Positions 35,270-64,000 of a stretch of DNA of 64,000 nucleotides are shown here, piece by piece. Positions within the stretch are counted from its first letter, which is position 1. The number at the start of each line of letters is the position of its first letter. Made by a program: the position numbers and the translations under genes. The notes below the pieces were generated by a model that was given only the letters and a program-made list of their open reading frames with translations, did no database searches and was not told the DNA's origin. Location of the stretch: NCBI RefSeq assembly GCF_019312595.1, contig NZ_JAHWDQ010000002.1:434001-498000 (forward strand), in the 5' to 3' direction. The stretch is from Zhongshania aquimaris (GTDB taxonomy: Bacteria > Pseudomonadota > Gammaproteobacteria > Pseudomonadales > Spongiibacteraceae).

Positions 35270-35270
35270 G

Positions 35271-35762: not shown

Positions 35763-35800
35763 ACCCTTAGACATTCACAGAAATCGGCTGGACTATCGCC

Positions 35801-37408: not shown

Positions 37409-37437
37409 GTGGCATTAAAAGAATTGAGGAAGAGTGT

Positions 37438-46084: not shown

Positions 46085-46450
46085 ATGCGCGTCAAAGCGT
46101 TGAAAAGTAGAGTCAGGCTCCGTATCAACAAGAGCAAGGGTTCGGTATTTATGCCTGGGGATTTCTTTGACCTCTCGGGTCGTGATCAGGTGGGCTGCGG
46201 CTTGCGTGAGCTGGTAGCAGAGGACACGATAATTCGATTTGGACAGGGTCTCTACGCAGTGCTGCTGCTTTTTTCATGGTTGGCCTCTCTGCGCCTGCTA
46301 GGGGAACTGATATATTCCTCTGAAACATCCCGCTTGGGGAGAGGGGTGGACCATTCCATTAAATCAACACGGCTGTTACATTATCCCCCTTTTGAAATTG
46401 GTATTAGTGCCCCAGATATTGATCGCGCGGCAGTTGAAGATAAAAATTGA
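46085..46450 (+). pseudogene. Decayed AbiEi/DUF6088-like winged-helix gene
   Basis: The frame encodes 121 residues. The first 55 or so, RVRLRINKSKGSVFMPGDFF, then DLSGRDQVGCGLRELVAEDT and IIRFGQGLYAV, match the winged-helix N-terminal domain of DUF6088/AbiEi-type antitoxin proteins. The next part of the family (a domain of over 100 residues) is not recognisable; the frame instead runs on through unrelated sequence and overlaps the 3' end of the convergent SDR by 70 bp. The ATG has a perfect GGAGGT five bases ahead, so it was once, or still is, expressed. No partner toxin is present. Confidence 0.6.
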
Positions 46451-47064
46451 ATCACGTCGGCGATGGATTCAGGTTTTACCCAGCTACTTGTGTCGGCGTC
46501 AGGCATCGCTGCACGATTCGTTTTTGTGTCGATAGTGCTGGGCAAAATAGCGTTTACCGTTGTATTGGTGTCTGCCAGTTCTTTGGCCAGAGATTCGGTG
46601 AATTTGTGTATGCTTGCTTTAGAAGACGCATAGGCGCCCATACCTGCATCCGCTGATAATGCGCCTATGGCGCCGATATTGATGATTCTACCTGCGTGAC
46701 TTTGTTTTATTTCTGGCAGTGCCGCTTTGGTCATCGACACCGCAGTTAACAAATTCATTCCGAACATCCGCTCCCAGTCCGATAGTTCACTGTTGTCTAG
46801 CATCCCCCAGGAGAATCCGCCTGCGATATTTACCAGTACATCTATGCCGCCGAATTTGTCCTTTACCGCGTTCGTGACCTTCTGGCAATCTAGGGGTTTG
46901 TTGAGGTCTACACCGGCTAGATCCAGCGTGTGATCAATGATGGTTACTGGCGCCGAGGCAAAGTCTACTCGGCAAACATTGTGACCATTTAGCGAAAACG
47001 CATGTGATACCGCTGTGCCTAGTTCGCCAAACCCTCCGGTTACGATGATGTTTAATTGGGTCAT
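46381..47064 (-). CDS. SDR family oxidoreductase, short form
   Basis: A protein of 227 residues. The Rossmann motif is NIIVTGGFGELGTAVSHAFS, the NNAG variant is DVLVNIAGGFSWGMLD, and the active site is MGAYASSKASIHKFTESLAK (Tyr and Lys of YxxxK). The small size and the sequence pattern are compatible with pteridine- or quinonoid-dihydropteridine-reductase-like SDRs, but this is not decisive. It is the last gene of the minus-strand operon that contains folE, 33 bp after the preceding reductase. Confidence 0.82.
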   Translation of the reverse strand: MTQLNIIVTGGFGELGTAVSHAFSLNGHNVCRVDFASAPVTIIDHTLDLAGVDLNKPLDCQKVTNAVKDKFGGIDVLVNIAGGFSWGMLDNSELSDWERMFGMNLLTAVSMTKAALPEIKQSHAGRIINIGAIGALSADAGMGAYASSKASIHKFTESLAKELADTNTTVNAILPSTIDTKTNRAAMPDADTSSWVKPESIADVIQFLSSTAARSISGALIPISKGG

Positions 47065-48825: not shown

Positions 48826-49599
48826 TTACTTATTTTTTGGTGGTGCACCTAGATGGCCTGGCCATCTGCTGCCGCCTATGGTGTCTACAAAGGGCCAAAA
48901 TGCTTTTGGATCTAGCTCGCCAGCGATCGTGACTGACCGGCTTCGATATTCTGGCCACCATAAATGAGATGAGATCTGTTCTCTTAATGGTAGCATCGTG
49001 GCAATCGGGTCCCATGGGCTGTCAAGCAGCGTCAGTTTGCCGTCGAGGGCCAAGCGGTAGCCGGGGCCGTACTTGCCATGCACTTTAACGACATGGGGTG
49101 GAAAGTCATAGCCTTCTTCGCCGCCCACTTTGCGAGAATATTTTGTCCACCATTCAAACCGCTCTGGGTCGCCCTTGATCTGGTCTTCTTCCCCCACCGT
49201 GGCAGTGAAGTTAAGAAAGGTATAGCCCTGATGATGACAACGTGCAGTAACGTTCGGTCCAAGGCGATAGTATTCAGTAGTAGCCGGGAATTTTGGTTGG
49301 CCATTCATCATGACGCTGATATGAATCGCTGCTTCCTGATCAATGCCGTAGCCAATCGCGTACTCGCCGCTTTGACCTTGGTAGTCCGCATTGACAGTAA
49401 TGAGAACGCCATACTCAGGCTCTTCATTCACGGGGAGGTTGTAGATGGTTAAATTTACGTTCGGGGTTTCACCGGGATCTATACCTGGTGGTAAGAGGTT
49501 CGCGATGGCTTCTTTGTCTGTGCGATACACAATCTTTAGCATTGGCCATTGGGCAATCTCACCAGGAGTTGTCAGTGGTGCATTTGCGGGATCCGTCAT
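48826..49599 (-). CDS. Acetoacetate decarboxylase family protein
   Basis: A protein of 257 residues with the ADC-fold pattern: MLKIVYRTDKEAIANLLPPG near residue 20, a GVLITVNADYQGQSGEYAIG strand region, and EYYRLGPNVTARCHHQGYTF. Members of this superfamily include decarboxylases, dehydratases and aldolases, and many lack decarboxylase activity, so the reaction is open. It is the first gene of the minus-strand set. A copy of the 15-bp repeat lies 133 bp ahead of its start. Confidence 0.8.
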   Translation of the reverse strand: MTDPANAPLTTPGEIAQWPMLKIVYRTDKEAIANLLPPGIDPGETPNVNLTIYNLPVNEEPEYGVLITVNADYQGQSGEYAIGYGIDQEAAIHISVMMNGQPKFPATTEYYRLGPNVTARCHHQGYTFLNFTATVGEEDQIKGDPERFEWWTKYSRKVGGEEGYDFPPHVVKVHGKYGPGYRLALDGKLTLLDSPWDPIATMLPLREQISSHLWWPEYRSRSVTIAGELDPKAFWPFVDTIGGSRWPGHLGAPPKNK

Positions 49600-50259
49600 G
49601 TTAAGTAGACCTCATCTATTTGGTAATTATTTTAAGTGGGTTTCATGTGGGTAATGTAAATGCACCCAGCTTCGAAGTTACACTGCCGCGTTCTTTAGTC
49701 GACGCTGGAGATACTAGCACTTGGAATTCTGTTCTATAAGGAATCAAACGTAATATGACTGTTCTCAGCCTTGGGCCAATTATGTCCCGTTGATTGTGCG
49801 CTATTCAGCGACAATGAGTTTACATTAGGTGCTTTATTGTTATGACTGGGTCGGGATAAAGTCGTGCAATCAAATTGTCACAAGTGAAAATGCTCAGGGG
49901 CATAGAGAATAATAAGTGAAGAGACCCTTGGTTCTCCAGTGTAGGGTTGAGAGGCGAATGCTGTAAATAATCTGTGGTCCGGGAAGATGCGCGATTGATG
50001 AAGTCATAATGTGGCCAGGTAGGTGAACGATTTCCGAGATACTGATAATTTCATATTCCGTTTCGGTAATGTGTGAATTCAGTAGTTGATGTAGTTGCTA
50101 GGGCCGAATTAATAAAAATTAACGATTGGGTTTATCTGCATATATGAGTGCTAGTATCCGGTCATCATGAATAAATGATTTTGGCTTTGGATTAGGTGAA
50201 GTGGTTAGCGCATGATCCTAAATTCAATGAATAATAAGTGCTAGCCATTGGGAGTAAGT
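49600..50259. other. Intergenic region between divergent ADC-like and SDR genes
   Basis: A stretch of 660 bp without a supported gene. It includes repeat copy 2 (49732-49746) and must carry promoters for both divergent catabolic operons. The LysR regulator encoded at 51134 is a candidate to bind here. Confidence 0.5.
49732..49746. repeat. 15-bp repeat copy 2, TTCTATAAGGAATCA
   Basis: Identical to 45891-45905. It is placed 133 bp upstream of the acetoacetate-decarboxylase-like gene on the minus strand and about 510 bp upstream of the plus-strand SDR. Confidence 0.6.
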
Positions 50260-51096
50260 GTGGATAATTTTGAGGGATTAACAGCGGTTGTAACTGGCTC
50301 GGCAAGTGGTATTGGTCGAGCCTTAGCGGTTAAGGCTGCAAGCGAAGGGATGAATGTCTGCATAGCAGATATGAATTCATCGGCGCTCGAAATATTGGCT
50401 GACGAGCTAAAAGCAAAGGGCGTAAATGTATATGCGCAGAAGTTAGATGTGTCCAGCTCAGAGTCAGTTAAGAGTTTTGCTGCCGAGTGTTTTTCTCGAT
50501 TTAACACAGTGGAGTTGCTGTTTAATAATGCCGGAATTCTCAGTCTCGGATGCGCCTGGGAGCAAAGTGTAGAGGATTGGGAGCGTTTGCTATCAATAAA
50601 CGTCATGGGCGTAGTGAATGGCATAAATGCATTTCTTCCCGCCATGGTCGAGGCGGAAAAAGCCGCTCATATTGTAAACACCGGCTCGGTCGGCTCATTG
50701 GTCGCTGCGGCCGGTATGGCGCAATACACTGCATCTAAAATGGCGGTTCGCGGTATTACAGAATGTTTGAGCGTTGAGCTGCAATTACAGCAAGCCCCAA
50801 TAGGTGTGTCATTGCTGTGCCCGGGGCCTGTAGCGACTAATATTGCTGAAGGCGTTATAACTCGAGCGCTAGGTGATGATGCGAGCGCAGAAATGATTGC
50901 CGAGGCGAAAGCGGCGACAGTGGCGGGAGATCCAAATTTTATAACCCCTGATGTGTGTGCAGAGCTTGTATTTAGCGCGATTAGAGATAATAAATTTTGG
51001 ATATTTACCCACCCTTTCAATAGATATTACAAGGGTTTGACAGACGCAGTTCTAAATGGGGAGAATCCTAGCTATAGCGATGTAGAATTCGACTAA
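50260..51096 (+). CDS. SDR family oxidoreductase
   Basis: A protein of 278 residues. The NAD motif is AVVTGSASGIGRALAVKAAS, followed by LLFNNAGILSLG and active site AQYTASKMAVRGITECLSVE. A C-terminal extension FWIFTHPFNRYYKGLTDAVL places it in the same subfamily as the SDR at 58771, which ends the ring-cleavage operon. The start GTG 50260 has GGGAG five bases ahead; an upstream TTG at 50248 is weaker. It is followed after 37 bp by the LysR gene and probably co-transcribed with it. Confidence 0.88.
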   Translation: MDNFEGLTAVVTGSASGIGRALAVKAASEGMNVCIADMNSSALEILADELKAKGVNVYAQKLDVSSSESVKSFAAECFSRFNTVELLFNNAGILSLGCAWEQSVEDWERLLSINVMGVVNGINAFLPAMVEAEKAAHIVNTGSVGSLVAAAGMAQYTASKMAVRGITECLSVELQLQQAPIGVSLLCPGPVATNIAEGVITRALGDDASAEMIAEAKAATVAGDPNFITPDVCAELVFSAIRDNKFWIFTHPFNRYYKGLTDAVLNGENPSYSDVEFD

Positions 51097-51133
51097 CAAT
51101 AAAGCTGGGAATCGCGCCCGCAAAAGGAGCAGT

Positions 51134-52069
51134 GTGTCTAAATTCGTGAGTTCGTCAATCGGCAGGTGGGATGGTATCGACGAGTTTGTGCAGTCGGTTT
51201 CTTCGGGAAGCTTTACTGCTGCAGCTGAGAATCTTGGGGTGTCAAAGTCCTATGTCAGCAAGCAGGTGGGAAAGCTTGAAGATAGGTTGAACGCAAGATT
51301 ACTTCAGCGTTCAACCAGGCAGCTGGCATTGACCGATGTGGGTGAAATTTTTTATCAAGAATGTCTCACGCTTTCGAGAAGGTTTGAAAATCTCGAATCA
51401 GTAATATCGGAAATGCAAAATAGTCCCAAGGGTATTCTTAAGGTGGCGATAAATTGCCGCTTTGGTGTTCAGTATATGGCTGGTGCGATTGCGTCATTTG
51501 CTCGTCTTCACCCCGATATGTCAATCACGGTGCATTCTAGTTTCAGAGACGTTGATCTAATTGCTGAGGGTTACGACCTAACTATACGTTACGGCGAACT
51601 AGAGGATTCCTCCTTGGTCGCTAGAAAGCTCGGTGGCTACACCATGAGTCTATACGCCTCTCCGGCTTACTGGGACGAACACGGGATGCCGTTGAATGTT
51701 GAAGATCTTCAGCACTACAACTCACTGTGTACCCCCGATCGAGTTTGGCATTTTAGTTCGTCTAGGGTGGTTAACAAAGTTCGGGTCACCGGCAACTGGA
51801 TTAGTGAGGACGGTGCGGCGCTTAAGGCGGGTGCAGTTGCTGGAATAGGTATCGTTCAGCTGCCAGATTTTTTCGTTGTGAATGAGGTGGAGTCTGGTCA
51901 GCTTGTGCGACTGCCGCGACCGTGGAACTTTTATTGGCGTACTGCGTGGGCGGTTTATTCCGGAAACCAGCACTTGTCAGCGAAAATTCGATTTTTCATC
52001 GATTTCTTGTGTAAAAGTATGGCCGGTGAAGCATGGCTAGAGAATAAAAGTCTATTTCATCAGGTGTGA
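51134..52069 (+). CDS. LysR family transcriptional regulator
   Basis: A protein of 311 residues. The N-terminal winged HTH reads GIDEFVQSVSSGSFTAAAEN, LGVSKSYVSKQVGKLEDRLN and RLLQRSTRQLALTDVGEIFY. A periplasmic-binding-like effector domain of the CrgA/DsdC type follows (YDLTIRYGELEDSSLVARKL). The start is GTG with AGGAG six bases ahead. It is likely to control the neighbouring aromatic or steroid-type operon; the binding sites are not known. LysR regulators often sense pathway intermediates. Confidence 0.92.
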   Translation: MSKFVSSSIGRWDGIDEFVQSVSSGSFTAAAENLGVSKSYVSKQVGKLEDRLNARLLQRSTRQLALTDVGEIFYQECLTLSRRFENLESVISEMQNSPKGILKVAINCRFGVQYMAGAIASFARLHPDMSITVHSSFRDVDLIAEGYDLTIRYGELEDSSLVARKLGGYTMSLYASPAYWDEHGMPLNVEDLQHYNSLCTPDRVWHFSSSRVVNKVRVTGNWISEDGAALKAGAVAGIGIVQLPDFFVVNEVESGQLVRLPRPWNFYWRTAWAVYSGNQHLSAKIRFFIDFLCKSMAGEAWLENKSLFHQV

Positions 52070-52172
52070 TTTATAAATCGTGAGAGGTGAATCTATAGAA
52101 CTATTTTGGTTGATTAATGTTTTCAAGAAGAACTAAGTGTAAAAAAATGTATATTATAAAAGGAGAATAGCG

Positions 52173-52472
52173 ATGAGCATTGCAGGATCTTGGGACGTTA
52201 TACTGAATACGCCAATGGGCAAGCAGAAAGGCAAGATGACAGTAACTCTAAATGGGGATGAAATAGTTGGCGAGATTCAGTCGCCAATGGGTAATATTCC
52301 TATGAAAGAGGGAAAGTTAGATGGTGATAAAGGAACGTGGCTCTGTGGCGTGACAAAACCAATTTCTATGAATCTTGAATTTGATGTTTTGTTTGAGGGT
52401 GACGCGTTTACTGGCACTGTAAAGGTGGGGCCAATGGGAAAAAATGTAGTCGAAGGGAAACGGGCATCGTAA
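52173..52472 (+). CDS. Small beta-rich protein of unknown function
   Basis: A protein of 99 residues made of alternating strands, starting MSIAGSWDVILNTPMGKQKG and containing repeated units (TPMGKQKGKM, SPMGNIPMKEG, GPMGKNVVEG). It has no signal peptide. AGGAG precedes the ATG. Similar small proteins occur in steroid and aromatic catabolic clusters of actinobacteria and proteobacteria, as I recall, without assigned function. A lipocalin-like ligand-binding role is possible. Confidence 0.75.
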   Translation: MSIAGSWDVILNTPMGKQKGKMTVTLNGDEIVGEIQSPMGNIPMKEGKLDGDKGTWLCGVTKPISMNLEFDVLFEGDAFTGTVKVGPMGKNVVEGKRAS

Positions 52473-52687
52473 GCCGTTCTAATTCGCTATTGCCGTTTCT
52501 CGGGTGGTTTCTTCAACCCCGGTTATGGATGGTCCGGCGAAGACCTCACGATGACTTACTCTAGACTTCAGTTAGTTGGGGCTTCGTCGGATATAAAAAG
52601 TTATACAGGTCTAGAAAGATATCTTCTAATATTCTCAAAACTTTGATCAGTAATTTCCAATTCTTGGCGTCATATGATATTCCTGTT

Positions 52688-52981
52688 TTATGGCGTGTAC
52701 GGCTGAAGTGTCAGGGCATTTTCGGGGCAGGCGTCAATACATAGTTTGCACGCGTGGCAGGCTGATGGGTTGACGACAAATGCTTGCATTCCGCCGTGAT
52801 TAAACGCCTTTATTTTCCCAATAATAGAAAGCTTGGCGCGTTGCTCTTTTGATATTTTGGAGACTTCAAATACGTCAAATGGGCACACCTGTACGCAATC
52901 ATCCTTTCCTTCGCAGCGGTTCCTGTTGACCACCGGTGCTACTCTGCCTGATATGTCGCTACAAAGTTCCTTGTCTTTCAT
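52688..52981 (-). CDS. Ferredoxin with two [4Fe-4S] cluster motifs
   Basis: A protein of 97 residues from the ATG at 52981. Cluster motifs are NRCEGKDDCVQVCPFDVFEV and SACHACKLCIDACPENALTL, each a CxxCxxC-type set with a distal CP (the first is CxxxxxC). It carries electrons in the cytoplasm. The longer frame start at 53077 adds a hydrophobic piece with no family match, so the inner ATG was taken. It is on the opposite strand to its neighbours. It could donate to the Rieske oxygenase or another enzyme of the cluster, although Rieske oxygenases normally use [2Fe-2S] donors. Confidence 0.85.
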   Translation of the reverse strand: MKDKELCSDISGRVAPVVNRNRCEGKDDCVQVCPFDVFEVSKISKEQRAKLSIIGKIKAFNHGGMQAFVVNPSACHACKLCIDACPENALTLQPYTP

Positions 52982-53312
52982 GCTTAGTATCTCGTTGTGA
53001 GTATTATTTTTATATCGTATTAGTATTAAAAATACAGATATATCTTTTATAAAATTATAATTTGGATCATAGAGCACAAGTGATAAGTTTTACAATGCTT
53101 CGCTTTATTTTTGGGTTTCGGCGGAAGTCTAACTCTTTGTGAAAGAGTAATCCGCTCATTAATTTGTGTGATTTCATTCATTGACCGTCGTGTGGATCCT
53201 ATTGAGGTCCATTGTCCCTCGATTGTGAACAATGTAATTACGTTTAGATTCTTCTCGCACTTGTTTTGCTGAACTATAGTTTGCGGATGTTGGTGTTAAT
53301 AGAGAATAAAAA

Positions 53313-54488
53313 ATGGATCGTTATCTAATCGTATCTACAGATGGTCATGCAGGGCTCCCCATGGAGCGTTACAGGGATTATCTTGAATCAAAATATCATG
53401 CGGCTTTTGATGAGGCTCTGCCTATCCAGCGAGAAAAGACTCGCAGGGCCGAAGAGTTTCTGTTGTTAACAGATTTTAATGACAAGTGGCGTGAGCAAGT
53501 CGAAGACAACTTGTCCGGCGCATGGGACGGCGCGGTTCGCAATAAGGTTATTGATAAGGACGGTGTGGCTGCAGAAGTACTCTTTCCAGATGGAATAACG
53601 GAAATGAACGCACCTCCATTTGGTGCGGATCTAGGGCTTCGTCCATGGGGTGTCGATCCCGAATTGCAGTGGGCCGGTGCGCGGGCGCACAACCGCTGGA
53701 TGGCGGAGTTCATGAAGGAAGATCCGATTCGCAGAATCGGTGTTGCGATAGTGTTGATGCTATACGATGTGGATGAGGCCTTAAATGAAATTAAATGGGC
53801 GCATAAAAATGGCTTTCGTGGAATTCTGATTCCGCCATTGATGGGAGACCGGGACGCCTACAACCACCCTAAGTATTACCCAATATGGGAATACTGTCAG
53901 GAATACGGAATTGTAGTTCACACTCATTCTGGCCCATCGCCTGATTATGACTACACTTTGCCAGGTGCTATTGGGGTGTTCGTTACTGAATTTGCGTGGT
54001 GGGCTGCGCGTCCGCTGTGGTTCATGATCTTTGGTGGTGTGTTTGAGCTTTTCCCACGACTGAAGTTTGCTTTAACGGAAGTTAGTGAGTTCTGGATACC
54101 GCATTTGATGGAGTTGATGGATGTTCGCGCGTCCGTTAAGCACACATCGGGCAAGTTGGGTGATTTCAGAAGTAATCTAACTATGGCGCCGAGCGAGTAT
54201 TTTAAGCGGAATGTATGGGTTGGCGCGTCTGCCCTGTTTGATGAGGGGTCAACGGCTGTGCGGCATGAAATAGGCATAAACAATGTCATGTGGGGTACCG
54301 ACTATCCCCATCCTGAAGGAAGCTGGCCAAACACGCACGACAAAATGGTTAAGTACTTGAAGGGGGTGCCTGAGGACGAGCTAACGCTAATGCTAAGTAA
54401 AAACGCTATCGAGTGTTACAACTTGGACGAGGCAGAGCTTAATAAAATTGCGGCGCGGGTTGGACCCTTAAAATCTGTTTTTGCGTAA
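53313..54488 (+). CDS. Amidohydrolase family protein (ACMSD-like)
   Basis: A protein of 391 residues. It starts DRYLIVSTDGHAGLPMERYR, where the DGH is in the metal-site position. HTHSGPSPDYDYTL near residue 205 and NNVMWGTDYPHPEGSWPNTH near 324 supply further His and the catalytic Asp. This is the branch with aminocarboxymuconate-semialdehyde decarboxylase, often found in aromatic catabolism, where members act as decarboxylases or hydrolases. It is the first gene of a six-gene plus-strand operon that ends at the hairpin 59648. Confidence 0.85.
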   Translation: MDRYLIVSTDGHAGLPMERYRDYLESKYHAAFDEALPIQREKTRRAEEFLLLTDFNDKWREQVEDNLSGAWDGAVRNKVIDKDGVAAEVLFPDGITEMNAPPFGADLGLRPWGVDPELQWAGARAHNRWMAEFMKEDPIRRIGVAIVLMLYDVDEALNEIKWAHKNGFRGILIPPLMGDRDAYNHPKYYPIWEYCQEYGIVVHTHSGPSPDYDYTLPGAIGVFVTEFAWWAARPLWFMIFGGVFELFPRLKFALTEVSEFWIPHLMELMDVRASVKHTSGKLGDFRSNLTMAPSEYFKRNVWVGASALFDEGSTAVRHEIGINNVMWGTDYPHPEGSWPNTHDKMVKYLKGVPEDELTLMLSKNAIECYNLDEAELNKIAARVGPLKSVFA

Positions 54489-54520
54489 ATAATAGATAAT
54501 AATTAGATGAGGATAGCAGC

Positions 54521-55516
54521 GTGACTGAGCGTTTTCCTATGCCTATGCCCTACGGTTGGTTTTGTGTAGGGTTTAGCAATGAGCTAGAGAAGAACGAAGT
54601 TAAAAATATCCATTATTTTGAACGCGATATGGTTCTTTTTAGAACCGCTTCGGGGAAGCTCGGCTTGACCAGTCCCGTTTGTCCTCATTTGGGTGCCCAT
54701 CTCGGTCATGGCGGCACCGTGCAGGGGGAGTCAATTCGGTGTCCATTCCATCACTGGCATTATGATGCCGAGGGTGTGATTACCGAAATCCCCTATGCTT
54801 CGCGTATACCGCCTAAGTGGGAAGGAAAGCCCTGTCTAAAAACCTATCCGGTGTGTGAAAAGAATGGCGTTATTTGGGCTTGGTATCACCCCAATGAAAC
54901 CAAGCCAGAGTACGACGTAATCGAATTGCCTGAGGCTCATGATCCGAGCTGGACGCATGAGCGTCGGTATTTTTGGGAGTTCAATTCTTGCCCTCAGGAA
55001 ATCGCCGAGAACGGTGTAGATGTAGCGCATTTCCAATTTGTACACAAAATGGAAGCGGTACCACTCGGTAAAACCGAATATGACGGTCATATCCGACGTA
55101 GTTTGGTTACCGGGACTCATATGATTCCGGATGAGACCGGTGAAGTTAAAGAGGTAGAAATTAGCGTGAGCGTCGTCCAGAACGGCGCTGGCCAGAAGTG
55201 GACTCGGTTTACAGGGGTGGGTGACTACCTTGTACAGGTCCTTGTGACGCCGGTCGCTAGAGAGAAGGTTGAAGTTAGATTTGCGTACAGCTACCCAATA
55301 CATGAAAAGGGGAGCTATCTAGACGCGGTAATGGAGTACTCGATAGCGACGACCAATGGCCAGCAAGGTCTAGAAGGCGATATTCCTATATGGCATAACA
55401 AATTTCATTTGGTGAATCCTGTGTTGTGTGATGGCGATGGTCCAATCATGAAATTCCGAAAGTATTTTTCACAGTTTTATAATTTCGAAGTAACGGACGC
55501 TGTGAAAATAGTTTGA
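54521..55516 (+). CDS. Rieske non-heme iron oxygenase, KshA-like
   Basis: A protein of 331 residues. The Rieske [2Fe-2S] ligands are C54, H56, C74 and H77 (CPHLGAH and CPFHHWH). The mononuclear iron site is ENGVDVAHFQFVH with N164, D167, H170 and H175. Length and pattern resemble KshA, the oxygenase of 3-ketosteroid 9-alpha-hydroxylase, and the related cholesterol 7-desaturase branch. It needs an external reductase, which is not in the operon. The start is GTG with GAGGA seven bases ahead. The substrate is probably polycyclic, by inference from family and neighbours. Confidence 0.87.
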   Translation: MTERFPMPMPYGWFCVGFSNELEKNEVKNIHYFERDMVLFRTASGKLGLTSPVCPHLGAHLGHGGTVQGESIRCPFHHWHYDAEGVITEIPYASRIPPKWEGKPCLKTYPVCEKNGVIWAWYHPNETKPEYDVIELPEAHDPSWTHERRYFWEFNSCPQEIAENGVDVAHFQFVHKMEAVPLGKTEYDGHIRRSLVTGTHMIPDETGEVKEVEISVSVVQNGAGQKWTRFTGVGDYLVQVLVTPVAREKVEVRFAYSYPIHEKGSYLDAVMEYSIATTNGQQGLEGDIPIWHNKFHLVNPVLCDGDGPIMKFRKYFSQFYNFEVTDAVKIV

Positions 55517-55674
55517 TTTTGATATTTTAGATGGCGAAAAAATTATTTATTTTTAACTATCAAATTATCGAGATAATAAGATATTAATAATTTGGCATAA
55601 CCTGAGGCCACTTAAATTGGTTCTTTGCAATTATAGCTTTCGGTAAATACAAATAATTATTTTGGGAGTTCAAT

Positions 55675-56886
55675 ATGAACAGCATGTCGATCAGTAATTC
55701 AACGTCCACAATGCATAGCTTGGGATCACCTCGTGCAAATGAGTTGCTAGAAAAGGCGAGAGCTTTGCATCCGGTACTGAAAGAAAGAGCGGCCAAGTGT
55801 GCTGCAGATGCAAAGGTACCCGAAGAAACTATCGCTGATTTTAAAGAGGCGGGATTTTTCAAGATTCTTCAGTCTGAAGCCTACGGCGGATATGAAATGG
55901 ATCCCCAGGTTTATTATTCCGTCGTCATTGAAATCGCGAAAGCGTGTATGTCGTCGGCTTGGGTATTGAGTGTTGTAGGTGTGCATAACTGGCAGCTTAA
56001 TTTGTTCGATCCTGAAGCTGCAAAAGAGGTTTGGGGAGATGATCCGAGTGTGCTTATCTCGTCTTCCTATGCACCAGTTGGTTTGGTTTCGCGAGTGGAA
56101 GGCGGCTTCACATTGAGCGGTTGCTGGAGTTTTTCTAGCGGCTGTGAGCATTGTGACTGGGTTTATCTTGGCGCGGTCGCTCCGGGAGAAGACGGCTCTT
56201 GGGAGATAGAGAACTACAGAACATTTTTACTTCCGCGCAAAGACTACAAGATTATTAAAAACTGGGATGTGGTAGGTCTTAAGGGTACCGGGAGCCACGA
56301 TATCGATGTGGATAATGTGTTTGTTCCTGAGCATAGAACGCATTTTATGTTTGGTGATGTTGGCTCGGATAAACATAAAAATAAGCGCCCTGTATACCAG
56401 TTGCCCTTTATGCAGGTCTTTTCTCGCGCTGTATGCACGGCCACATTGGGGGCGCTGGAAGCTGCGCTGGATGACTATATTCATGTCGCCAATAATCGCT
56501 TGGCGGGCCGTGTAATGATGAGAGATGACGCGGATTCAAAACGTATCGCCGCGCAAGTTAAATCAGAAATAGAAACTATGAAACTAATCATGATTTCTAA
56601 TTTTGACGCTATGTTGGAGAGCGCTAGAACCGGTGTTGAAATCAGCATGGCTGATCGCGCACGGTTTCGTTATGAAAGTTCAATGGTGGCAGATCGCTGC
56701 ATCGCATTGTCATCAAAAATGCTCAAAGCTTCTGGATCTGGCTCAATTCGTAATAAGAGTGCGTTGCTGGCAAAGCATCTAGATATGTTGGCTAGCCAAG
56801 CACACGTTGCAAACGTGTCGGATGCCTTCGAGATTAATCTAGGCGGCGTATTGTTTGGCCATGAAACCACTGAGCTGGGGCTTTAA
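55675..56886 (+). CDS. Flavin-dependent monooxygenase of acyl-CoA-dehydrogenase fold (HsaA-like)
   Basis: A protein of 403 residues. It starts ANELLEKARALHPVLKERAA and contains SSAWVLSVVGVHNWQLNLFD, LSGCWSFSSGCEHCDWVYLG and WDVVGLKGTGSHDIDVDNVF. These match the group D two-component monooxygenases such as HsaA and TesA2, which hydroxylate a phenolic steroid ring before meta-cleavage. They need FADH2 or FMNH2 from a small flavin reductase (HsaB), not found in the window. The ATG has GGGAG ahead. It is placed between the Rieske oxygenase and the hydrolase, the expected chemical order. Confidence 0.88.
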   Translation: MNSMSISNSTSTMHSLGSPRANELLEKARALHPVLKERAAKCAADAKVPEETIADFKEAGFFKILQSEAYGGYEMDPQVYYSVVIEIAKACMSSAWVLSVVGVHNWQLNLFDPEAAKEVWGDDPSVLISSSYAPVGLVSRVEGGFTLSGCWSFSSGCEHCDWVYLGAVAPGEDGSWEIENYRTFLLPRKDYKIIKNWDVVGLKGTGSHDIDVDNVFVPEHRTHFMFGDVGSDKHKNKRPVYQLPFMQVFSRAVCTATLGALEAALDDYIHVANNRLAGRVMMRDDADSKRIAAQVKSEIETMKLIMISNFDAMLESARTGVEISMADRARFRYESSMVADRCIALSSKMLKASGSGSIRNKSALLAKHLDMLASQAHVANVSDAFEINLGGVLFGHETTELGL

Positions 56887-56953
56887 GTTAGTAGATAGGC
56901 AGCATGGTATTTGGTTCAACGCTGTATAAATGCAAAAAAATCACGAAGGATGA

Positions 56954-57790
56954 ATGACAATGACAATGAATGGTGTTCTGCCAGATGAAAATTATGCGAT
57001 CTGCCCCAACGGCTACCGTATTCATTATATCGATAAAGGTGACGGTCCAGTCATTGTGTTTCTTCATGGCTCCGGGCCGGGTGCAAGCGGTCACAGTAAT
57101 TTTAAGCAAAATTATCAATTTATCGCTGAGCAGGGGTATCGTTGCATTGTTCCCGATCTAATCGGCTTTGGCTTTTCGGATAAGCCCGACGATGTCGATC
57201 ATCCGCTAAGCTTCTTCGTAGAGTGCGTTAAGCAAACACTGGATTTAGCTGGTGTGAGTGAATGCATTGTGGTGGGTAATTCCCTGGGGGGTGCCGTTGC
57301 GATTGGACTTGCCCTAGAGCATCCAAAGCTTGTTAAAAAGTTGGTTCTGCTGGCGCCGGGTGGCATGAGTCAAACCGAAGAATACTTCACCATGCCAGGC
57401 ATGCAGAAAATGTTCGAGGTCTACGGCTCTGGTGATGATATTACTCCGGAGATTATGAAAGAACTGTTTTCCTTCGGTTTAATGTACGACCCGAAATATG
57501 CGACAGATCAGTTAGTTGCAGAGCGATTCCAAATTATGGGGCTCATGAATGGCCACGTAATGATCACTATGCAAATACCCTATTTGGCAGAACGTCTTAG
57601 TGAGCTGAGCTGTCCGGTATTGGCCTTTTGGGGCGCTAATGAGCGAATGATGCCAGATAGCGGAATCATGGCACTTAAGAATAACTGTTCGAATCTAGAG
57701 TTGATAATTCTATCTGAGTGCGGTCACTGGGTTATGGTCGAGCATGAGGCTCTTTTTAATAGTGAATGTTTAAAATTTTTCGCGGCATAG
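56954..57790 (+). CDS. Meta-cleavage-product hydrolase (HsaD/BphD-like)
   Basis: A protein of 278 residues with an alpha/beta-hydrolase fold. The oxyanion region is FLHGSGPGASGHSNF near residue 36, the nucleophile is S110 in VVGNSLGGAVA, and the base is H258 in SECGHWVMVEH. The acid position, Asp in BphD/HsaD (WGxxDR), here reads FWGANERMMP, so Glu seems to replace Asp. The family splits the C-C bond of vinylogous 1,5-diketones formed by extradiol dioxygenases. The dioxygenase gene follows at 57805, 14 bp after its stop. Confidence 0.9.
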   Translation: MTMTMNGVLPDENYAICPNGYRIHYIDKGDGPVIVFLHGSGPGASGHSNFKQNYQFIAEQGYRCIVPDLIGFGFSDKPDDVDHPLSFFVECVKQTLDLAGVSECIVVGNSLGGAVAIGLALEHPKLVKKLVLLAPGGMSQTEEYFTMPGMQKMFEVYGSGDDITPEIMKELFSFGLMYDPKYATDQLVAERFQIMGLMNGHVMITMQIPYLAERLSELSCPVLAFWGANERMMPDSGIMALKNNCSNLELIILSECGHWVMVEHEALFNSECLKFFAA

Positions 57791-57804
57791 AAGGTAGCGT
57801 CATT

Positions 57805-58701
57805 ATGAATATCCGCAGTTTAGGTTATGCGTTTATCGAGTCTAAAGACCCAAGCGAATGGCGAGTATTTGGCACTGAAGTACTTGGGATGATGGAGGTT
57901 CCAGGAGTCGGTGACGAGAATGTGTTTCTCAAAATAGATGAGCGGCCATTTCGATTTGCGATTGTTCCCGGTGCGGAGAACCGTCTTAAGTTGCTGGGCT
58001 TAGAGCTGTATGACGAGAATGATTTTGTTAAAGCGATCCAAGAGTTAGAAGCTAGCGGAACTAGCTATACGCGCGGTAGTCGAGCTGATTTGAAAATGCG
58101 AGGTGTGCTTGATTTAGTGCGTTTTAATGATCCAGCGGGCAATACCTTAGAGTTGTATCACGGCGCGGATCTCGATTATGCCAAGTTCATTTCACCTTTA
58201 GGTATATCAGGGTTTGAAACGGGTGATTTTGGCTCGTCGGGTTTCGGGCATGCTGTTCTGCCCGCAGAAAACTTAGATGAAACACATACCTTTTATAAGA
58301 ATGTACTGGGATTTGGAGACTCAGATTATATGCACTTCAAGTTTAGCGATGACCCGGATGAGCCGGGCTTGGCATTGAAGTTTATGCATGTGAACAATCC
58401 GCGCCATCACTCGGTTGCGTTATTTGGCGGCGAGAGCCTCGCTGGCTGTATTCACTTGATGCTTGAAGTTAAAACGATTGATGAAGTGGGGGAGTGTTTA
58501 CAGCGCGTTATCGAGCGCGAGATACCTATCACCTCAACATTAGGTCGGCATACCAATGATAATATGTTGTCTTTTTATATGATGACGCCGGGTGATTTTC
58601 CACTTGAGTTTGGCTGCGAAGGGCTGCAAATGGACTGGGATAATTACACGCCAACGAAAACCACCTTACCAAGTCATTGGGGCCACAAGTTCGCGCTGTA
58701 A
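57805..58701 (+). CDS. Extradiol ring-cleavage dioxygenase (BphC/HsaC-like)
   Basis: A two-domain vicinal-oxygen-chelate protein of 299 residues. Iron ligands appear as H149 (GFGHAVL), H217 (GCIHLMLEV) and E268 (PLEFGCEG), with H202 in PRHHSVAL as the acid-base. The spacing matches BphC (146/210/260 and 195). It cleaves a catechol ring next to the hydroxyls. The frame is open 39 bp upstream into the hydrolase gene, but ATG 57805 with AAGG ahead gives the normal N-terminus IRSLGYAFIES. It follows the hydrolase closely, as in hsa and bph operons. Confidence 0.92.
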   Translation: MNIRSLGYAFIESKDPSEWRVFGTEVLGMMEVPGVGDENVFLKIDERPFRFAIVPGAENRLKLLGLELYDENDFVKAIQELEASGTSYTRGSRADLKMRGVLDLVRFNDPAGNTLELYHGADLDYAKFISPLGISGFETGDFGSSGFGHAVLPAENLDETHTFYKNVLGFGDSDYMHFKFSDDPDEPGLALKFMHVNNPRHHSVALFGGESLAGCIHLMLEVKTIDEVGECLQRVIEREIPITSTLGRHTNDNMLSFYMMTPGDFPLEFGCEGLQMDWDNYTPTKTTLPSHWGHKFAL

Positions 58702-58770
58702 TTAGCAAGGAGATTGGATATTCCGGAAGCGGTTCTTCAAATCAGATAGAAAAATAATATGGTGGATTAA

Positions 58771-59637
58771 ATGCAGGAATTTTCAGGAAAAACGATAGTC
58801 GTCACCGGCGGAGCAAGCGGAGTTGGCTTTGCACTTTGCAATCGGTTTGGCAAAGAAGGTATGAATGTCGTAGTAGCAGACATTGAGCAAAAGGCTTTAG
58901 ATAAGGCGGTCGACACACTTAAGTCATCTGGGATAAATGCGATTGGCGTTGTGACAGATGTAACAAGTGCCGCTTCAGTTGAGAATTTAGCTGCCAAGGC
59001 GTATGGAAGCTTCGGTAATGTGCATGTTCTATGTAATAACGCGGGTGTGGGCGTTAAGGAAGCGGACCGGAAAATATGGGCGCTCTCTGCAAATGACTGG
59101 AACTGGGGGTACTCAGTGAATGTTATGGGGATAGCCAATGGTATTCGGGCTTTTGTTCCAAAAATGCTCGCCGCAGGCCTTGAGGGCCATATTATCAATA
59201 CGACCTCTTTCAATGGTGGTTGTATCGCATTTCCTACAACGCCTATTTACGCATCCTCTAAGGCGGCGGTGACCAGCCTAACCGAAGTTTTATACGCTCA
59301 GCTAAGCAAGGAGTCTTCTAAACTCAAGGTGCATTTGCTTTTCCCTGGGCCGCATATGGTTAACACGCAGATTTTGGCATCGCAACGTAATCGTCAAGCT
59401 GAGTTTCAGGATGACGTCAAGGTTGATGATTACATGACAATGGAGGACCTTAAGAAATCTGCTCTTGGGGCCAACGTTGAGTTCCAGCTTACAGAGCCGG
59501 TCGAGGTAGCTGATGCGTGCTTTGACGGCGTTTGTAATAATAATTTTTGGATCAGACCGTATCTGGATAGTCATCAAGCCATGATTACGGCGCGCTGTGA
59601 TAGCGTTCTTACAAATAGTAATCCTGCTGTCATGTAG
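58771..59637 (+). CDS. SDR family oxidoreductase
   Basis: A protein of 288 residues. The NAD motif is IVVTGGASGVGFALCNRFGK, NNAG is in HVLCNNAGVGVKEAD, and the active site is TPIYASSKAAVTSLTEVLYA. The C-terminal extension FWIRPYLDSHQAMITARCDS is shared with the SDR at 50260, so the two look like paralogues at either end of the gene set. It probably oxidises or reduces a hydroxyl on the ring substrate. It is the last gene of the operon, ahead of a strong terminator. Confidence 0.88.
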   Translation: MQEFSGKTIVVTGGASGVGFALCNRFGKEGMNVVVADIEQKALDKAVDTLKSSGINAIGVVTDVTSAASVENLAAKAYGSFGNVHVLCNNAGVGVKEADRKIWALSANDWNWGYSVNVMGIANGIRAFVPKMLAAGLEGHIINTTSFNGGCIAFPTTPIYASSKAAVTSLTEVLYAQLSKESSKLKVHLLFPGPHMVNTQILASQRNRQAEFQDDVKVDDYMTMEDLKKSALGANVEFQLTEPVEVADACFDGVCNNNFWIRPYLDSHQAMITARCDSVLTNSNPAVM

Positions 59638-59647
59638 GATGAATACA

Positions 59648-59690
59648 GTGGAATTTAAGGGGCAATCTTGCCCTTAAATTCCACGTTTTC
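59648..59690 (+). terminator. Terminator closing the ring-cleavage operon
   Basis: Perfect 14-bp arms GTGGAATTTAAGGG and CCCTTAAATTCCAC with a 9-nt loop, 10 bp after the SDR stop, followed by GTTTTC. A strong hairpin with a short T-run. Confidence 0.82.
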
Positions 59691-59827
59691 GGTATTCGCT
59701 ACACCAAAATATAACAATAAATTGTTGCACGGCATTTATATAAATACACTGTTAGATAACTAGCGCAGACCTGTACCTGGTAGCCTATTTGGGCGCCTTA
59801 CATAACTGATCTCTTCTTGATGTGCCT

Positions 59828-61612
59828 ATGAGGAACGTGTTGTTGATTAGTCTCGCAAGATTCCACGCCACATTGCTATACCCCTTGTTTGCGTTAGTTT
59901 TTGCTACTAATACTTATGCAGAGAAGACCGAGCGGCCTAACTTTATTGTCATTGTCGCTGATGATATGGGGTGGTCCGATATTGGTGCATTTGGTAGTGA
60001 AATTAGAACACCGACGTTAGATTCGCTTGCCGAGCAAGGTGTAACAATGACTAACTTCTATGTTGCTCCAACATGCTCGCCAACGCGCTCAATGCTGATG
60101 ACGGGAGTAGATAGCCACCTCGCAGGGCTGGGCACAATGGAGGGTGTTCAGGCTGAAAATCAAACCCATTCAGATGCCTATTCAGGTCAGCTGCGCGATG
60201 ACGTTGTCACTGTCGCAGAAGCTCTTAAGGCGTCAGGCTACGCTACGCTGATGAGCGGTAAATGGCACTTGGCCAAGGATGCCAGTCAATATCCTAGTAA
60301 TCGAGGTTTTGACCGTTCGTTTACTTTGATTGAAGGTGGCGCTAGCCATTTTAGTGACGCGGCTCCGCTGTACCGTACAGAGAAGGCGACATATCTTGCA
60401 GATGGCGTAGTCACCGTCTTGCCAGACGACTTTTATTCCTCGAAGGCCTACACCGATAAAATGTTGGGCTACCTGAATTCACTGGATTCAGAAACGCCAT
60501 TTTTCGCCTACGTTGCCTACACCGCTCCCCATGACCCATTGCAGGTGCCTGATTCTTGGCTTGATAAATATTCTGGTGTCTACGAGCAGGGCCCGGAATC
60601 GCTTCGGGCACAACGTGCTCAAGCTCTGTTAGATCGAGGTTTTATCCCGGAAGGTACTGAATTGTGGGCGCCACCAACATTTCCGAAATTTTTGCCTGCG
60701 TATGTTAAGCCGTGGTCAATGATGGATGATGTGGCGCATAAATCGGCAAGTAGGCCGATGGAGATATACGCGGCAATGGTCGAGTATATGGATGACCAAA
60801 TTCATCGGCTGATCGACGAGCTAGAGCGTACTGGTCATTTAGAAAATACCTATATCGTCTTTCTTTCTGACAATGGTGCCAATGGCGCGACACCTTTGTC
60901 GTACCCAGGAAGTACGCGGGAATGGTTTTTAAATGAGTACAAACAGGGTGTAGAAAATCAGGGGCGCCGTGGTTCTCACACTTATATGGGCCGCGATTGG
61001 GCGTCAGTGTCGGCGTCGCCGTTTAAATTGTATAAAGGCGCAATTGCCGAGGGAGGAATACGCGCTCCCTTGATTGTGACCGGTCCCTTAGTTGAAAAGA
61101 ATAAAATATCAAAGCAGGTCTCGCACATAACGGATCTCACTGCGACACTGTATGCATTAGCGGGTATTAATACTTCGTCAAATATTTTGTTCAAAGATAA
61201 AATTCGGCCCGAAGGACAATCACTATTTGAAAACTGGAAGGACATTAGCAACGAAAAAAGCCGCACGTTTGCCACAGAGCTTTTCGGACATAGATCCGTA
61301 GTGTCGGATCGTTGGAAAGCGACAAATATGAGGCCTCCGTTGGGGAGCGGTAAATGGGAGCTTTATGATCTGAGTGAGGATCCGAGCGAAGTAAACAACC
61401 TTGCTGAAGTATACCCGGATAAACTCACTGAGTTAGTTGCGTATTACGATAACTATAAAAAAAGAGTTGGTGTGATCTTGCCTGACCCGCCAATCTCGGT
61501 GTCTCTCGGAGACTTATTTACTACAGAATGTAATTGGTACTGCCAGATAATAGTCAGTGTTGTCGATTTTACAATTGATCTATGGGTGAGCCTATTCGTT
61601 AGTGATGAGTGA
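59828..61612 (+). CDS. Periplasmic arylsulfatase-type sulfatase
   Basis: A protein of 594 residues. A signal peptide covers about residues 1-31. Metal-binding D45 and D46 lie in FIVIVADDMGWSDIGAFG, and the formylglycine Cys is C83 in APTCSPTRSMLMTG, the C-x-P-x-R signature. Further motifs are LMSGKWHLAKDASQYPSNRG, YTAPHDPLQVPDSW and VFLSDNGANGATP. It hydrolyses sulfate esters and needs a formylglycine-generating enzyme elsewhere. A hydrophobic C-terminal segment, CQIIVSVVDFTIDLWVSLFV, may anchor it to a membrane. ATG 59828 was preferred to the GTG at 59822. It overlaps the acyltransferase start by eight bases. Confidence 0.9.
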   Translation: MRNVLLISLARFHATLLYPLFALVFATNTYAEKTERPNFIVIVADDMGWSDIGAFGSEIRTPTLDSLAEQGVTMTNFYVAPTCSPTRSMLMTGVDSHLAGLGTMEGVQAENQTHSDAYSGQLRDDVVTVAEALKASGYATLMSGKWHLAKDASQYPSNRGFDRSFTLIEGGASHFSDAAPLYRTEKATYLADGVVTVLPDDFYSSKAYTDKMLGYLNSLDSETPFFAYVAYTAPHDPLQVPDSWLDKYSGVYEQGPESLRAQRAQALLDRGFIPEGTELWAPPTFPKFLPAYVKPWSMMDDVAHKSASRPMEIYAAMVEYMDDQIHRLIDELERTGHLENTYIVFLSDNGANGATPLSYPGSTREWFLNEYKQGVENQGRRGSHTYMGRDWASVSASPFKLYKGAIAEGGIRAPLIVTGPLVEKNKISKQVSHITDLTATLYALAGINTSSNILFKDKIRPEGQSLFENWKDISNEKSRTFATELFGHRSVVSDRWKATNMRPPLGSGKWELYDLSEDPSEVNNLAEVYPDKLTELVAYYDNYKKRVGVILPDPPISVSLGDLFTTECNWYCQIIVSVVDFTIDLWVSLFVSDE

Positions 61613-62525
61613 AAATATGAGCATGGACGATGGTGATAAAATAATAATAGAGACTACCACTCTAGCTAAAGACGATCATAAAGATATTGACGTTGCTGAG
61701 ATAGTTGCAGATTCACTGGCGGCCGAGGGAGCAGCACGACAGCGCCACACAACATTATATTCAATACTTAGGCGTATATTTTCACCTACTGTTGTGGGGC
61801 AAGAAAATATACCCCCCACACCGGTACTGCTCGTTGGTAATCATGCGCTTCTCGCGCTCGACGTACCGTTGATTCAATCGACATTTCTGCATGAATCTGG
61901 TCGCTTGGTTCGCGCAATGGGTGATCGGGTTTTGTTTGGCAATCCGACGGTGAGAAAAGCGATGATAAGCCAAGGTGGAATATTGGGGCATCCTGAGATT
62001 TGCGCCAAGATGATGGAGGCTGGGAAAGATCTCCTAGTTTTTCCAGGTGGATCATATGAAGTGAATAAGCCTGCTAATCAGCGCTACCAGCTTAAATGGA
62101 AAGAGCGGTATGGCTTTGTAAAGCTAGCTGCAATGCATGGCTACACCATACTTCCCTTTGCAACGATCGGCCCTGATGAATTTTACGGCCGCTATATGGA
62201 AAGCGCACAGTGGTATAACTCAGCTTTGGGAAAACTACTTATCAGGCTTGGCGTGCTGAGCGGAGATGGGCGTACTGATTTGCTGCCGCCTATTCCTAAG
62301 GGCGTGTGGGGTACATTAATTCCTAAGCCCGAGCGCTTTTATATGAGTATTGGAAAACCGATTTATCTGCGTGAGTATAAAGGACAAACTCTTGCGCAAA
62401 ATCAACTTGAGGCAATACGCAACGAGACATCTGCAAGCATAGAAACGCAAATTCGAGACTTGCTATTAGCTAGAGCACAAAATGCAGAGCAAGAGGGTTG
62501 GTTGAGGCGTCTACTTATACGGTAA
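61605..62525 (+). CDS. Lysophospholipid/diacylglycerol-type acyltransferase
   Basis: A protein of 306 residues. The catalytic block is VLLVGNHALLALDVPLIQST near residue 75 (an NHxxxxxD form of the HX4D motif), followed by VFPGGSYEVNKPANQRYQLK near 145, the glycine-rich FPGG motif of LPLAT proteins. The pattern is closest to the MGAT/DGAT/TMEM68-like branch, which acylates glycerol or other alcohols. The ATG lies inside the sulfatase stop region, so the genes are translationally coupled. It may acylate the alcohol released by the sulfatase, or a lipid (inference). Confidence 0.82.
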   Translation: MSENMSMDDGDKIIIETTTLAKDDHKDIDVAEIVADSLAAEGAARQRHTTLYSILRRIFSPTVVGQENIPPTPVLLVGNHALLALDVPLIQSTFLHESGRLVRAMGDRVLFGNPTVRKAMISQGGILGHPEICAKMMEAGKDLLVFPGGSYEVNKPANQRYQLKWKERYGFVKLAAMHGYTILPFATIGPDEFYGRYMESAQWYNSALGKLLIRLGVLSGDGRTDLLPPIPKGVWGTLIPKPERFYMSIGKPIYLREYKGQTLAQNQLEAIRNETSASIETQIRDLLLARAQNAEQEGWLRRLLIR

Positions 62526-63431: not shown

Positions 63432-63775
63432 TGGATTGGATCTTTTCTCTGATTGGAATTTGAGTTTAGAACTATATTTGTACTGAGCGATTGAGTGGTT
63501 ATTGTAAACACATAAATTACGATATACGACTTACTGGATTGCTTATTAAAAATTACACTTCCTTAATGATAATAAGGATTATAGCTCGTCATGCAGAGTA
63601 TGTGTAGTAAGGGTCGTTTGTAAGCTGAGTTATTAGTAGCTTAATTATCCTTTGATAAAAGCTCCTTATAATCATAAGTGCAATGTTGCAATGATACAGA
63701 TTCGAATATCTCTAAAAATATAATAAATGGCGTATTTTTAATACCATAAATATATGCCCATTCTAAGTGGGAGAA
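63432..63775. other. Intergenic region between divergent BASS and TonB-receptor genes
   Basis: A stretch of 344 AT-rich bases, with no gene seen. It must hold both promoters. No clear palindrome was found. Confidence 0.5.
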
Positions 63776-64000
63776 ATGATGAATAATAAAGCCCTGTTAG
63801 CTGGTCTTGCTGTAAATATGGCATTTTCCGGCCTTACTTTTGCAGAAACCTCAAAGAAAGGAATGCAGATAGAAGAGGTGGTGGTTACGGCTCGTAAAAG
63901 AGACGAAAGCCTGCAAGAGGTCCCCGTCGCCGTTACCGCTGTTTCAACTGCCGAAATGGCAGCAAACAATATATCAACCATTGCTGATTTGGCAAAAATT
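63776..64000 (+). CDS. TonB-dependent receptor, 5' end only
   Basis: The first 75 residues are in the window. A signal peptide ends near AFSGLTFAETS, the TonB box region is IEEVVVTARKRDESLQEVPV, and the plug domain begins with AVTAVSTAEMAANNISTIAD. The frame is open at the right edge, and a full receptor would be 700-850 residues. Tandem ATGs at 63776 and 63779 follow AGTGGGAG. It resembles the receptor at 39632 in its start and may import the substrate of the sulfatase and ring-cleavage genes. Confidence 0.9.
   Translation, partial: MMNNKALLAGLAVNMAFSGLTFAETSKKGMQIEEVVVTARKRDESLQEVPVAVTAVSTAEMAANNISTIADLAKI

Follow-up and report, generated by a model that had tools for sequence, protein, structure and literature searches.

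A candidate accessory module for a steroid-like polycyclic compound in Zhongshania aquimaris

A six-gene run and a conserved cassette

The DNA considered here, called the window throughout, is a stretch of 64,000 nucleotides from Zhongshania aquimaris (positions 434001-498000 of contig C5, NZ_JAHWDQ010000002.1), whose 4.25-Mb genome is estimated to be 100% complete. An earlier reading of the sequence alone (the sequence-only reading) had described six enzyme genes at window positions 53313-59637, all in one direction. Open reading frame (ORF) and Pfam scans bear this out: six intact ORFs, separated by gaps of 14-158 bases, encode an amidohydrolase, a Rieske oxygenase, HsaA-, HsaD- and HsaC-like proteins and a short-chain dehydrogenase (SDR), here SDR2. 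An acetoacetate decarboxylase (ADC)-like gene lies on the opposite strand, beyond the range that reading had covered. By predicted gene content the island combines two modules: (a) a cassette made up of the amidohydrolase, Rieske, SDR and ADC-like genes, and (b) HsaA, HsaD and HsaC.

53313..54488 (+), Amidohydro_2 protein, PtmU3-like, candidate dinuclear oxygenase, cassette gene (Pfam Amidohydro_2, E 1.4e-30)
54521..55516 (+), cassette Rieske oxygenase, KshA_C family, placed outside the KshA clade (Pfam Rieske 1.5e-19 and KshA_C 2.6e-28)
55675..56886 (+), HsaA-type flavin-dependent phenol monooxygenase (Pfam acyl-CoA dehydrogenase N and C domains, 3.4e-10 and 1.6e-11; NF045629)
56954..57790 (+), meta-cleavage product hydrolase, HsaD/BphD-like (Pfam abhydrolase 1.2e-27; NF045632)
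57805..58701 (+), HsaC-type extradiol dioxygenase, from its conserved start (Pfam BphC_D1 and Glyoxalase; NF045631)
58771..59637 (+), SDR2, short-chain dehydrogenase, cassette gene (Pfam adh_short)
59648..59684 (+), hairpin 3' of SDR2, probable terminator with a weak T run (folding and shuffles)
48826..49599 (-), ADC-like protein, cassette gene (PF06314, 5.3e-28)

The HsaC-like ORF as listed begins at 57766, within the HsaD-like gene; the conserved start is M14 (57805), which aligns with residue 1 of Mycobacterium tuberculosis HsaC and is conserved across at least 95% of an alignment of 21 rows. The 37-base hairpin after SDR2 has a folding energy of -25.6 kcal/mol (z -6.06 in a comparison with 200 shuffles), in keeping with the strong terminator proposed earlier, but only four T follow, and a terminator scan demanding five T does not list 59648-59684.

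An amidohydrolase search across the phylum (E <= 1e-60) found matches in only two of 398 genomes, one of them the host, so the cassette was studied at the level of the order. There, in 390 genomes, the same threshold gave 54 matches in 36 genomes, with at most four candidates per genome scored at first look; eight genomes, the host included, exceeded 600 bits (close) and 28 held weaker matches only (distant). Of 40 regions fetched, seven were close and 29 distant, and four with 32-39% amidohydrolases (L108, L127, L128, L129) stayed out of the tally, which likewise excludes the host's own locus and the other matches, most of them partial or weaker. Three Halioglobus-type regions (L010, L012, L013) joined the close group. 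L009 and L090 most probably come from a single genome, and L090 alone was counted; several distant regions break off where their contigs end, and several belong to a single genus, so that they are not independent.

Within 6 kb of the amidohydrolase, the ten close regions carry the Rieske gene (10), SDR2 (10), the ADC-like gene (7), HsaA (7, with an eighth about 6 kb off in L094), HsaD (7) and HsaC (6), and the 29 distant regions carry the Rieske gene (20), SDR2 (21) and the ADC-like gene (18). All three partners of the amidohydrolase are near it in 7/10 close and 15/29 distant regions; HsaA, HsaD and HsaC were found near the cassette only in close relatives. In L010, L012 and L013 the cassette and HsaA, HsaD and HsaC form one run with a different gene order, which favours a functional unit over a single piece of chromosome passed on by descent. 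A LysR-type gene lies within 6 kb in nine of the close regions, and the window's own, at 51134-52069, is the probable regulator of the module. Beyond the order, a Rhodococcus gordoniae plasmid carries HsaA-, HsaC-, KstD- and HsaD-like genes (31-37% identity) around a 36% relative of the amidohydrolase; 36% was also the identity of the best-ranked amidohydrolase match in the plasmid collection, which gave two weak archaeal ADC matches.

In the ADC-like protein, G100, Q101, P102 and K103 are kept in at least 95% of 29 rows. K103 aligns with the first K of PKK in 3c8w and 3bgt (the GfPK stretch), by a weak match (E 0.0004 and 0.0009), and we take it to be the Schiff-base lysine of acetoacetate decarboxylases. 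Decarboxylation of a beta-keto acid would be chemically apt for such a predicted enzyme. A literature search of open-licence papers found none with acetoacetate decarboxylase, Rieske and amidohydrolase proteins together.

Placement of the ring-cleavage enzymes, the Rieske protein and the candidate dinuclear oxygenase

The host genome holds two other steroid gene sets. Set C, on the same contig (C5:535-565k), comprises an extradiol dioxygenase, KstD-like FAD_binding_2 proteins, HsaF, HsaG, HsaE, KshA, HsaA, HsaD and a flavin reductase of the HsaB type; its HsaE and HsaF were named after scanned G174 relatives, and its HsaG and KstD are presumed names. Set B (C1:826.5-829.8k) reads KshA-HsaC-HsaA and lies beside what we take to be a pyruvate kinase gene. 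In all, the genome encodes four extradiol dioxygenases of the HsaC family, the other three being 62%, 48% and 42% identical to the window's. The absence of HsaB, KshB, side-chain and later ring genes, remarked on in the sequence-only reading, therefore holds locally, but HsaB, HsaEFG, KstD-like proteins and two KshA/HsaA/HsaC sets are encoded elsewhere in the genome. At C8:185k there is also a candidate reductase of the KshB type, so named on its presumed architecture. One end of set C (C5:564174-567423, L040) adjoins an apparent integrase gene, as we presume from its sequence, and its HsaC type occurs in the host alone among 17 genus genomes; on these two grounds set C may be a mobile acquisition.

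The HsaA and HsaC of the island appear to be steroid-type. For the HsaA-like protein the best NCBIfam model is HsaA (NF045629), at 341.5 bits against 193.9 for the p-hydroxyphenylacetate hydroxylase model. This lies under the cut-off of 450, which the set B and set C copies also miss (361.2 and 379.9), so the cut-off does not discriminate here. Its best PDB relatives are 3-HSA hydroxylases (4.3e-71 and 3.2e-64), followed by an RHA1 hydroxylase (1.4e-61) and p-hydroxyphenylacetate hydroxylase (2.5e-39), and a tree of 20 rows places it beside the set C copy and a further two from Gammaproteobacteria (support 92/88). Because that tree has no monoaromatic outgroup, the steroid-type placement of HsaA rests on the PDB and NCBIfam ranks and on the set B and C copies. 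HsaC likewise scores best with its own model (NF045631; 276.8 bits, cut-off 450), in a near tie with biphenyl-2,3-diol dioxygenase (271.6). M. tuberculosis HsaC is its best PDB match, at 2.3e-69 against 1.3e-48 for BphC, and in a tree of 25 rows it groups with that protein and the set B copies (96/95), with three BphC references standing apart. In the same family, the HsaC of L021, a contig titled as a Klebsiella pneumoniae metagenome-assembled genome, groups with uncultured gammaproteobacteria, and the record looks mislabelled.

The labels HsaA-like and HsaC-like are thus upheld, and a place in simple monoaromatic branches, which the sequence-only reading had named beforehand as counter-evidence, is not where these results put the two proteins. 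The hydrolase is ambiguous. Its best NCBIfam model is HsaD (NF045632; 147.1 bits, cut-off 400), but bphD nearly ties with it (143.1), and the PDB search prefers BphD (1.3e-36) to HsaD (2e-28). The BphD resemblance, the two near ties with biphenyl-type models and the sulfatase gene that adjoins the island would suit a simple phenol, biphenyl or aryl-sulfate pathway that recruited these enzymes and handles no steroid. We judge this very improbable, given the position of HsaC apart from BphC, the lead of the HsaA model over that of p-hydroxyphenylacetate hydroxylase, and the co-occurrence with HsaC described below.

The Rieske gene of the window encodes an oxygenase of 331 aa that includes a catalytic domain. 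C54, H56, C74 and H77, which we take for the CxH...CxxH motif, and D167, H170, H175 and D287, which presumably include the 2-His-1-carboxylate, are kept in at least 95% of 44 rows. In a first tree of 47 rows, three KshA references grouped with the set B and set C proteins (97/97), and the window protein fell in a separate clade of 12 rows (100/99). That tree drew long-branch warnings in which the KshA references were involved, and it was rebuilt without the two longest of the host's own paralogs. The KshA references and sets B and C again formed one clade (100/100); on the other side lay the host paralogs at C5:118k, C9:97k and C1:890k and the cassette Rieske proteins, the window's among them. 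Uniting the window clade with the KshA references was rejected (p-AU 9e-38, by a clade test over which the long-branch warning remains). Moreover, the KshA_C score of the window protein is 100 bits, where the set B and set C copies reach 239.2 and 239.5. On this placement and lower score it should not be called KshA, and the name KshA-like in the sequence-only reading fails in its strict sense. Its best NCBIfam model is SdmA, at 55.4 bits (cut-off 600) over residues 13-137, the Rieske domain only. Elsewhere in the host (L047, C1:883857-891511), a 53% relative of the window's ADC-like gene stands beside a Rieske paralog (42%), among neighbours that we take to resemble DUF1552/DUF1587-type and cytochrome c genes; Rieske proteins at about this 42% level recur in HsaC-positive members of the genus.

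For the amidohydrolase, a PDB profile search ranks PtmU3 first (5.6e-49), ahead of an uncharacterised protein (3.5e-44) and DitZ (4.9e-44), with SfbO-type entries (8sm6-8sm9) from 1.5e-20 to 9e-15. The earlier label ACMSD-like is doubtful, since ACMSD itself scores about 2e-15. D10, H12, H205, E256, D330, H333 and E335 are present in all 44 aligned rows, the window's included, and were aligned with PtmU3. The metal ligands of AibH2 are D25, H27, H211, E265, D337 and H340, and a further acidic residue, D342 in AibH2 and E313 in PtmU3, marks the binuclear members (PMC7782822). The class has been named amidohydrolase-related dinuclear oxygenases (AROs) (PMC10811679). With seven metal-site positions matched and PtmU3 as best relative, the island protein may be an oxygenase, and such a role is likely.

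The Rieske protein and the amidohydrolase bear on a plainer account of the island as a near-ordinary 9,10-seco isoenzyme set, in which the former would be a 9alpha-hydroxylase that has diverged and the latter would work as an ordinary hydrolase or decarboxylase (ACMSD/LigY-like) on a product of the pathway. The Rieske protein does have a KshA_C domain, and PF04909 includes decarboxylases and a meta-cleavage compound hydrolase (5vn5, which we take to be LigY), both among the PDB profile matches. Rhodococcus genomes are known to carry multiple kshA copies or seco-type clusters, each of which probably serves a different steroid (PMC4064121). Against this stand the Rieske protein's exclusion from the KshA clade and its low KshA_C score, the conservation in every amidohydrolase row of E335, the acidic residue of binuclear members, and the preference for PtmU3 over ACMSD by more than 30 orders of magnitude in E-value; we regard the account as unlikely.

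Links to steroid degradation and the probable role of the module

We next consider the distribution of the module relative to an HsaC marker (E <= 1e-80), present in 41 of the 390 genomes, and to the Rieske subfamily (E <= 1e-72), present in 47; the tests treat genomes as independent, though they are not. Seven of eight carriers of the close amidohydrolase have HsaC, against 34/382 other genomes (p 6e-7), and outside the genus the figures are 3/4 against 24/369 (p 0.0013). The Rieske subfamily follows the same pattern: HsaC occurs in 30/47 carriers and 11/343 non-carriers (16/33 and 11/340 outside the genus). Within the genus, where 17 genomes were searched for both, all 14 with HsaC have the Rieske subfamily and none of the three without it do; the module itself is present in four of the 17. 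Even among genomes with the distant cassette only, HsaC is found in 8/28, above the 33/362 background (p 0.005). In one close relative (G174, L093) HsaF-G-E genes adjoin the module; there is no HsaC near, and its HsaC lies on another contig. The module HsaA of that genome is split by a frameshift, at about 12.8 kb, which is either real or a sequencing error.

These data also weigh on the idea that the module degrades a cyclic di- or triterpenoid, one ring of which would become aromatic before HsaA/C/D-type enzymes cleave it. PtmU3, nearest to the amidohydrolase among solved proteins, acts as a diterpenoid hydroxylase (PMC7782822), and the cassette occurs in many genomes that lack HsaC. The grouping of HsaA and HsaC with steroid-set copies, the HsaF-G-E genes beside the module in G174 and the co-occurrence with HsaC make the idea quite unlikely; a Pfam scan found no diterpenoid dioxygenase among the island genes, although no search was aimed at DitA. 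As to the hosts, marine Spongiibacteraceae and Halieaceae are confirmed, little-studied steroid degraders, and a Halieaceae isolate from a sponge, BC51, grew on cholesterol (PMC5790920). From the names, we infer that L010 (Halioglobus japonicus isolate BC5_1) is this strain.

The genes around the island are as follows:

46381..47064 (-), SDR3, next to the ADC-like gene in the congeners L091 and L092 (58-61% identity)
50248..51096 (+), SDR1 (Pfam; 54-63% matches in L091, L092, L093, L094, L010 and L012)
51134..52069 (+), LysR-type regulator, probable module regulator (Pfam)
52173..52472 (+), 99-aa protein, non-conserved
52688..53077 (-), Fer4 ferredoxin, possible electron carrier, non-conserved (Pfam)
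59822..61612 (+), sulfatase with a signal-peptide-like start and a CSPTR motif (Pfam), conserved in some relatives
61602..62525 (+), acyltransferase, overlapping the sulfatase gene (Pfam; 54% in L092)
63767..64000 (+), start of a TonB-dependent receptor that runs on beyond the window end

The CSPTR motif is presumably the sulfatase active site. A sulfatase gene stands beside SDR2 in the congeners G212 (L091) and G192 (L092), at 57.7-59.5% identity (37% in L094). By the sulfatase in G212 there is a TonB-dependent receptor with 68% identity over 751 aa to the one starting at 63767, and G192 has a 158-aa receptor piece (75%) at the region's edge. Because both genes accompany the module in congeners, they suggest a large, perhaps sulfated substrate. 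In the host the receptor is followed, at C5:500401-502287 (L037), by a DUF3604 protein (728 bits), whose 55% relative in G003 (L094) neighbours the cassette.

The main module proteins are 96-99% identical to those of Zhongshania sp. BJYM1, the ferredoxin 93% and the 99-aa protein 90%. These last two were considered as module parts and rejected. Each is present in one of the ten close-relative regions (L090, genome G361) and in none of the 29 distant ones, so neither is a conserved part, the 99-aa protein being the small beta-rich protein that the sequence-only reading had included. SDR1, whole in the window, has a match of only 46 aa in the near-identical L090, at about 8.69 kb, and seems mostly lost there. 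Between SDR3 and the ADC-like gene lie an epimerase/3-beta-HSD gene (47098-48126) and a GTP cyclohydrolase I gene (48123-48665), both (-) and overlapping by four bases; among the ten close-relative regions the pair is in L090 alone. At 33782-38607 (+) a run of biotin carboxylase, carboxyltransferase and acyl-CoA dehydrogenase look-alikes, as we presume them to be, resembles leucine or acyclic terpene catabolism.

The genes and their linkage, the conserved active-site residues, the placement of HsaA, HsaC and the Rieske protein and the co-occurrence with HsaC are best explained by an accessory, substrate-specific catabolic module for a steroid-like polycyclic compound, which we consider moderately likely. 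The module probably allows the use of such a compound beyond the host's standard steroid pathway. This keeps the variant pathway on a polycyclic, steroid-like compound favoured by the sequence-only reading, which the placement of HsaA and HsaC backs, but changes its names for the Rieske protein and the amidohydrolase and drops its small protein.

What follows on substrate, sequence of steps and catalysis is inferred throughout. The TonB-dependent receptor would import the substrate and the sulfatase desulfate it. The four-gene cassette would then oxidise it to a phenolic ring: the PtmU3-like amidohydrolase is probably a dinuclear-metal hydroxylase, with the Rieske protein as second oxygenase, the SDR would produce ketones, and the ADC-like protein may decarboxylate or cleave a beta-keto acid. 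HsaA, with an HsaB encoded elsewhere, would convert the phenolic ring to a catechol, which HsaC would open and HsaD split, leaving a small fragment for the shared HsaE-G to finish.

Several observations weigh against this reading. HsaA, HsaC and HsaD are near the amidohydrolase in 0/29 distant regions, and 20/28 distant-cassette-only genomes lack an HsaC at E <= 1e-80; the cassette taken by itself is therefore not specific to steroids. The HsaD-like protein is nearer BphD, and HsaC and HsaD almost tie with biphenyl-type models. As to the amidohydrolase, AibH1 and AibH2 chains score no better than ACMSD (both about 1e-14 to 2e-15), and the ARO residue pattern recurs in two other amidohydrolases of the host that were aligned (about 30% identical), which makes it a feature of a wide subgroup. 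A structure prediction for five orthologs was poor (mean pLDDT 35.5). Finally, a small Rieske ferredoxin accompanies 90% of AibH2-like proteins (PMC10401708), but none adjoins the island amidohydrolase, whose Rieske neighbour is a full oxygenase.

A bolder idea is that the cassette is an undescribed machine for C-demethylation or deacylation, for example at C-4 of a 4-methyl sterol or triterpenoid, prompted by the Rieske and SDR-type C-4 demethylation known in sterol synthesis (PMC10202945). The two oxygenases would convert a methyl beside a ring alcohol to a carboxylate, the SDR would form the neighbouring ketone, and the ADC-like protein would decarboxylate the resulting beta-keto acid. With the methyl removed, aromatisation of ring A would be unblocked, so that HsaA/C/D could open the ring without the KshA first step. 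We hold this to be decidedly unlikely; if true, it would be a dedicated bacterial route to 4-methyl sterols such as dinosterol or lanosterol.

As a probable steroid-type accessory module, the island suggests that marine Spongiibacteraceae and Halieaceae have more than one version of steroid-type ring cleavage, and that a four-gene cassette built on a candidate dinuclear oxygenase can join it. It also cautions that a KshA_C domain alone is insufficient to name a Rieske protein KshA, and it offers a short enzyme list for substrate discovery.

Comparison with known systems

Bacterial sterol C-4 demethylation, in which the SdmA Rieske protein works with the SDR-type reductases SdmB and SdmC, shares with the island a Rieske oxygenase and SDR-type enzymes, and SdmA is the best NCBIfam match of the island Rieske protein. 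In contrast, that system is biosynthetic, the match is far under the cut-off, and the available parts of the paper describe no ADC-like or ARO partner (PMC10202945). Like the AROs PtmU3, AibH2 and SfbO, the island amidohydrolase has the six AibH2 metal ligands and the binuclear acidic residue, and PtmU3 is its best solved relative. Unlike them, this candidate, known here from its sequence, stands beside a full Rieske oxygenase rather than a small Rieske ferredoxin.

The oxygenases of the Rhodococcus jostii RHA1 kshA clusters presumably belong to the KshA clade. In the available parts of the description of RHA1 no amidohydrolase-Rieske-SDR-ADC cassette appears, but RHA1 resembles the host in carrying several paralogous ring-opening clusters per genome (PMC4064121). 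With the 9,10-seco clusters (kshA-hsaABCD/tes) the island shares HsaA-, HsaC- and HsaD-type enzymes, a KshA_C-family Rieske protein and a host that has a fuller seco-type set. It differs from them in a Rieske protein outside the KshA clade, in having no HsaB, HsaEFG or KstD of its own, and in the addition of an ARO-like amidohydrolase and an ADC-like protein.

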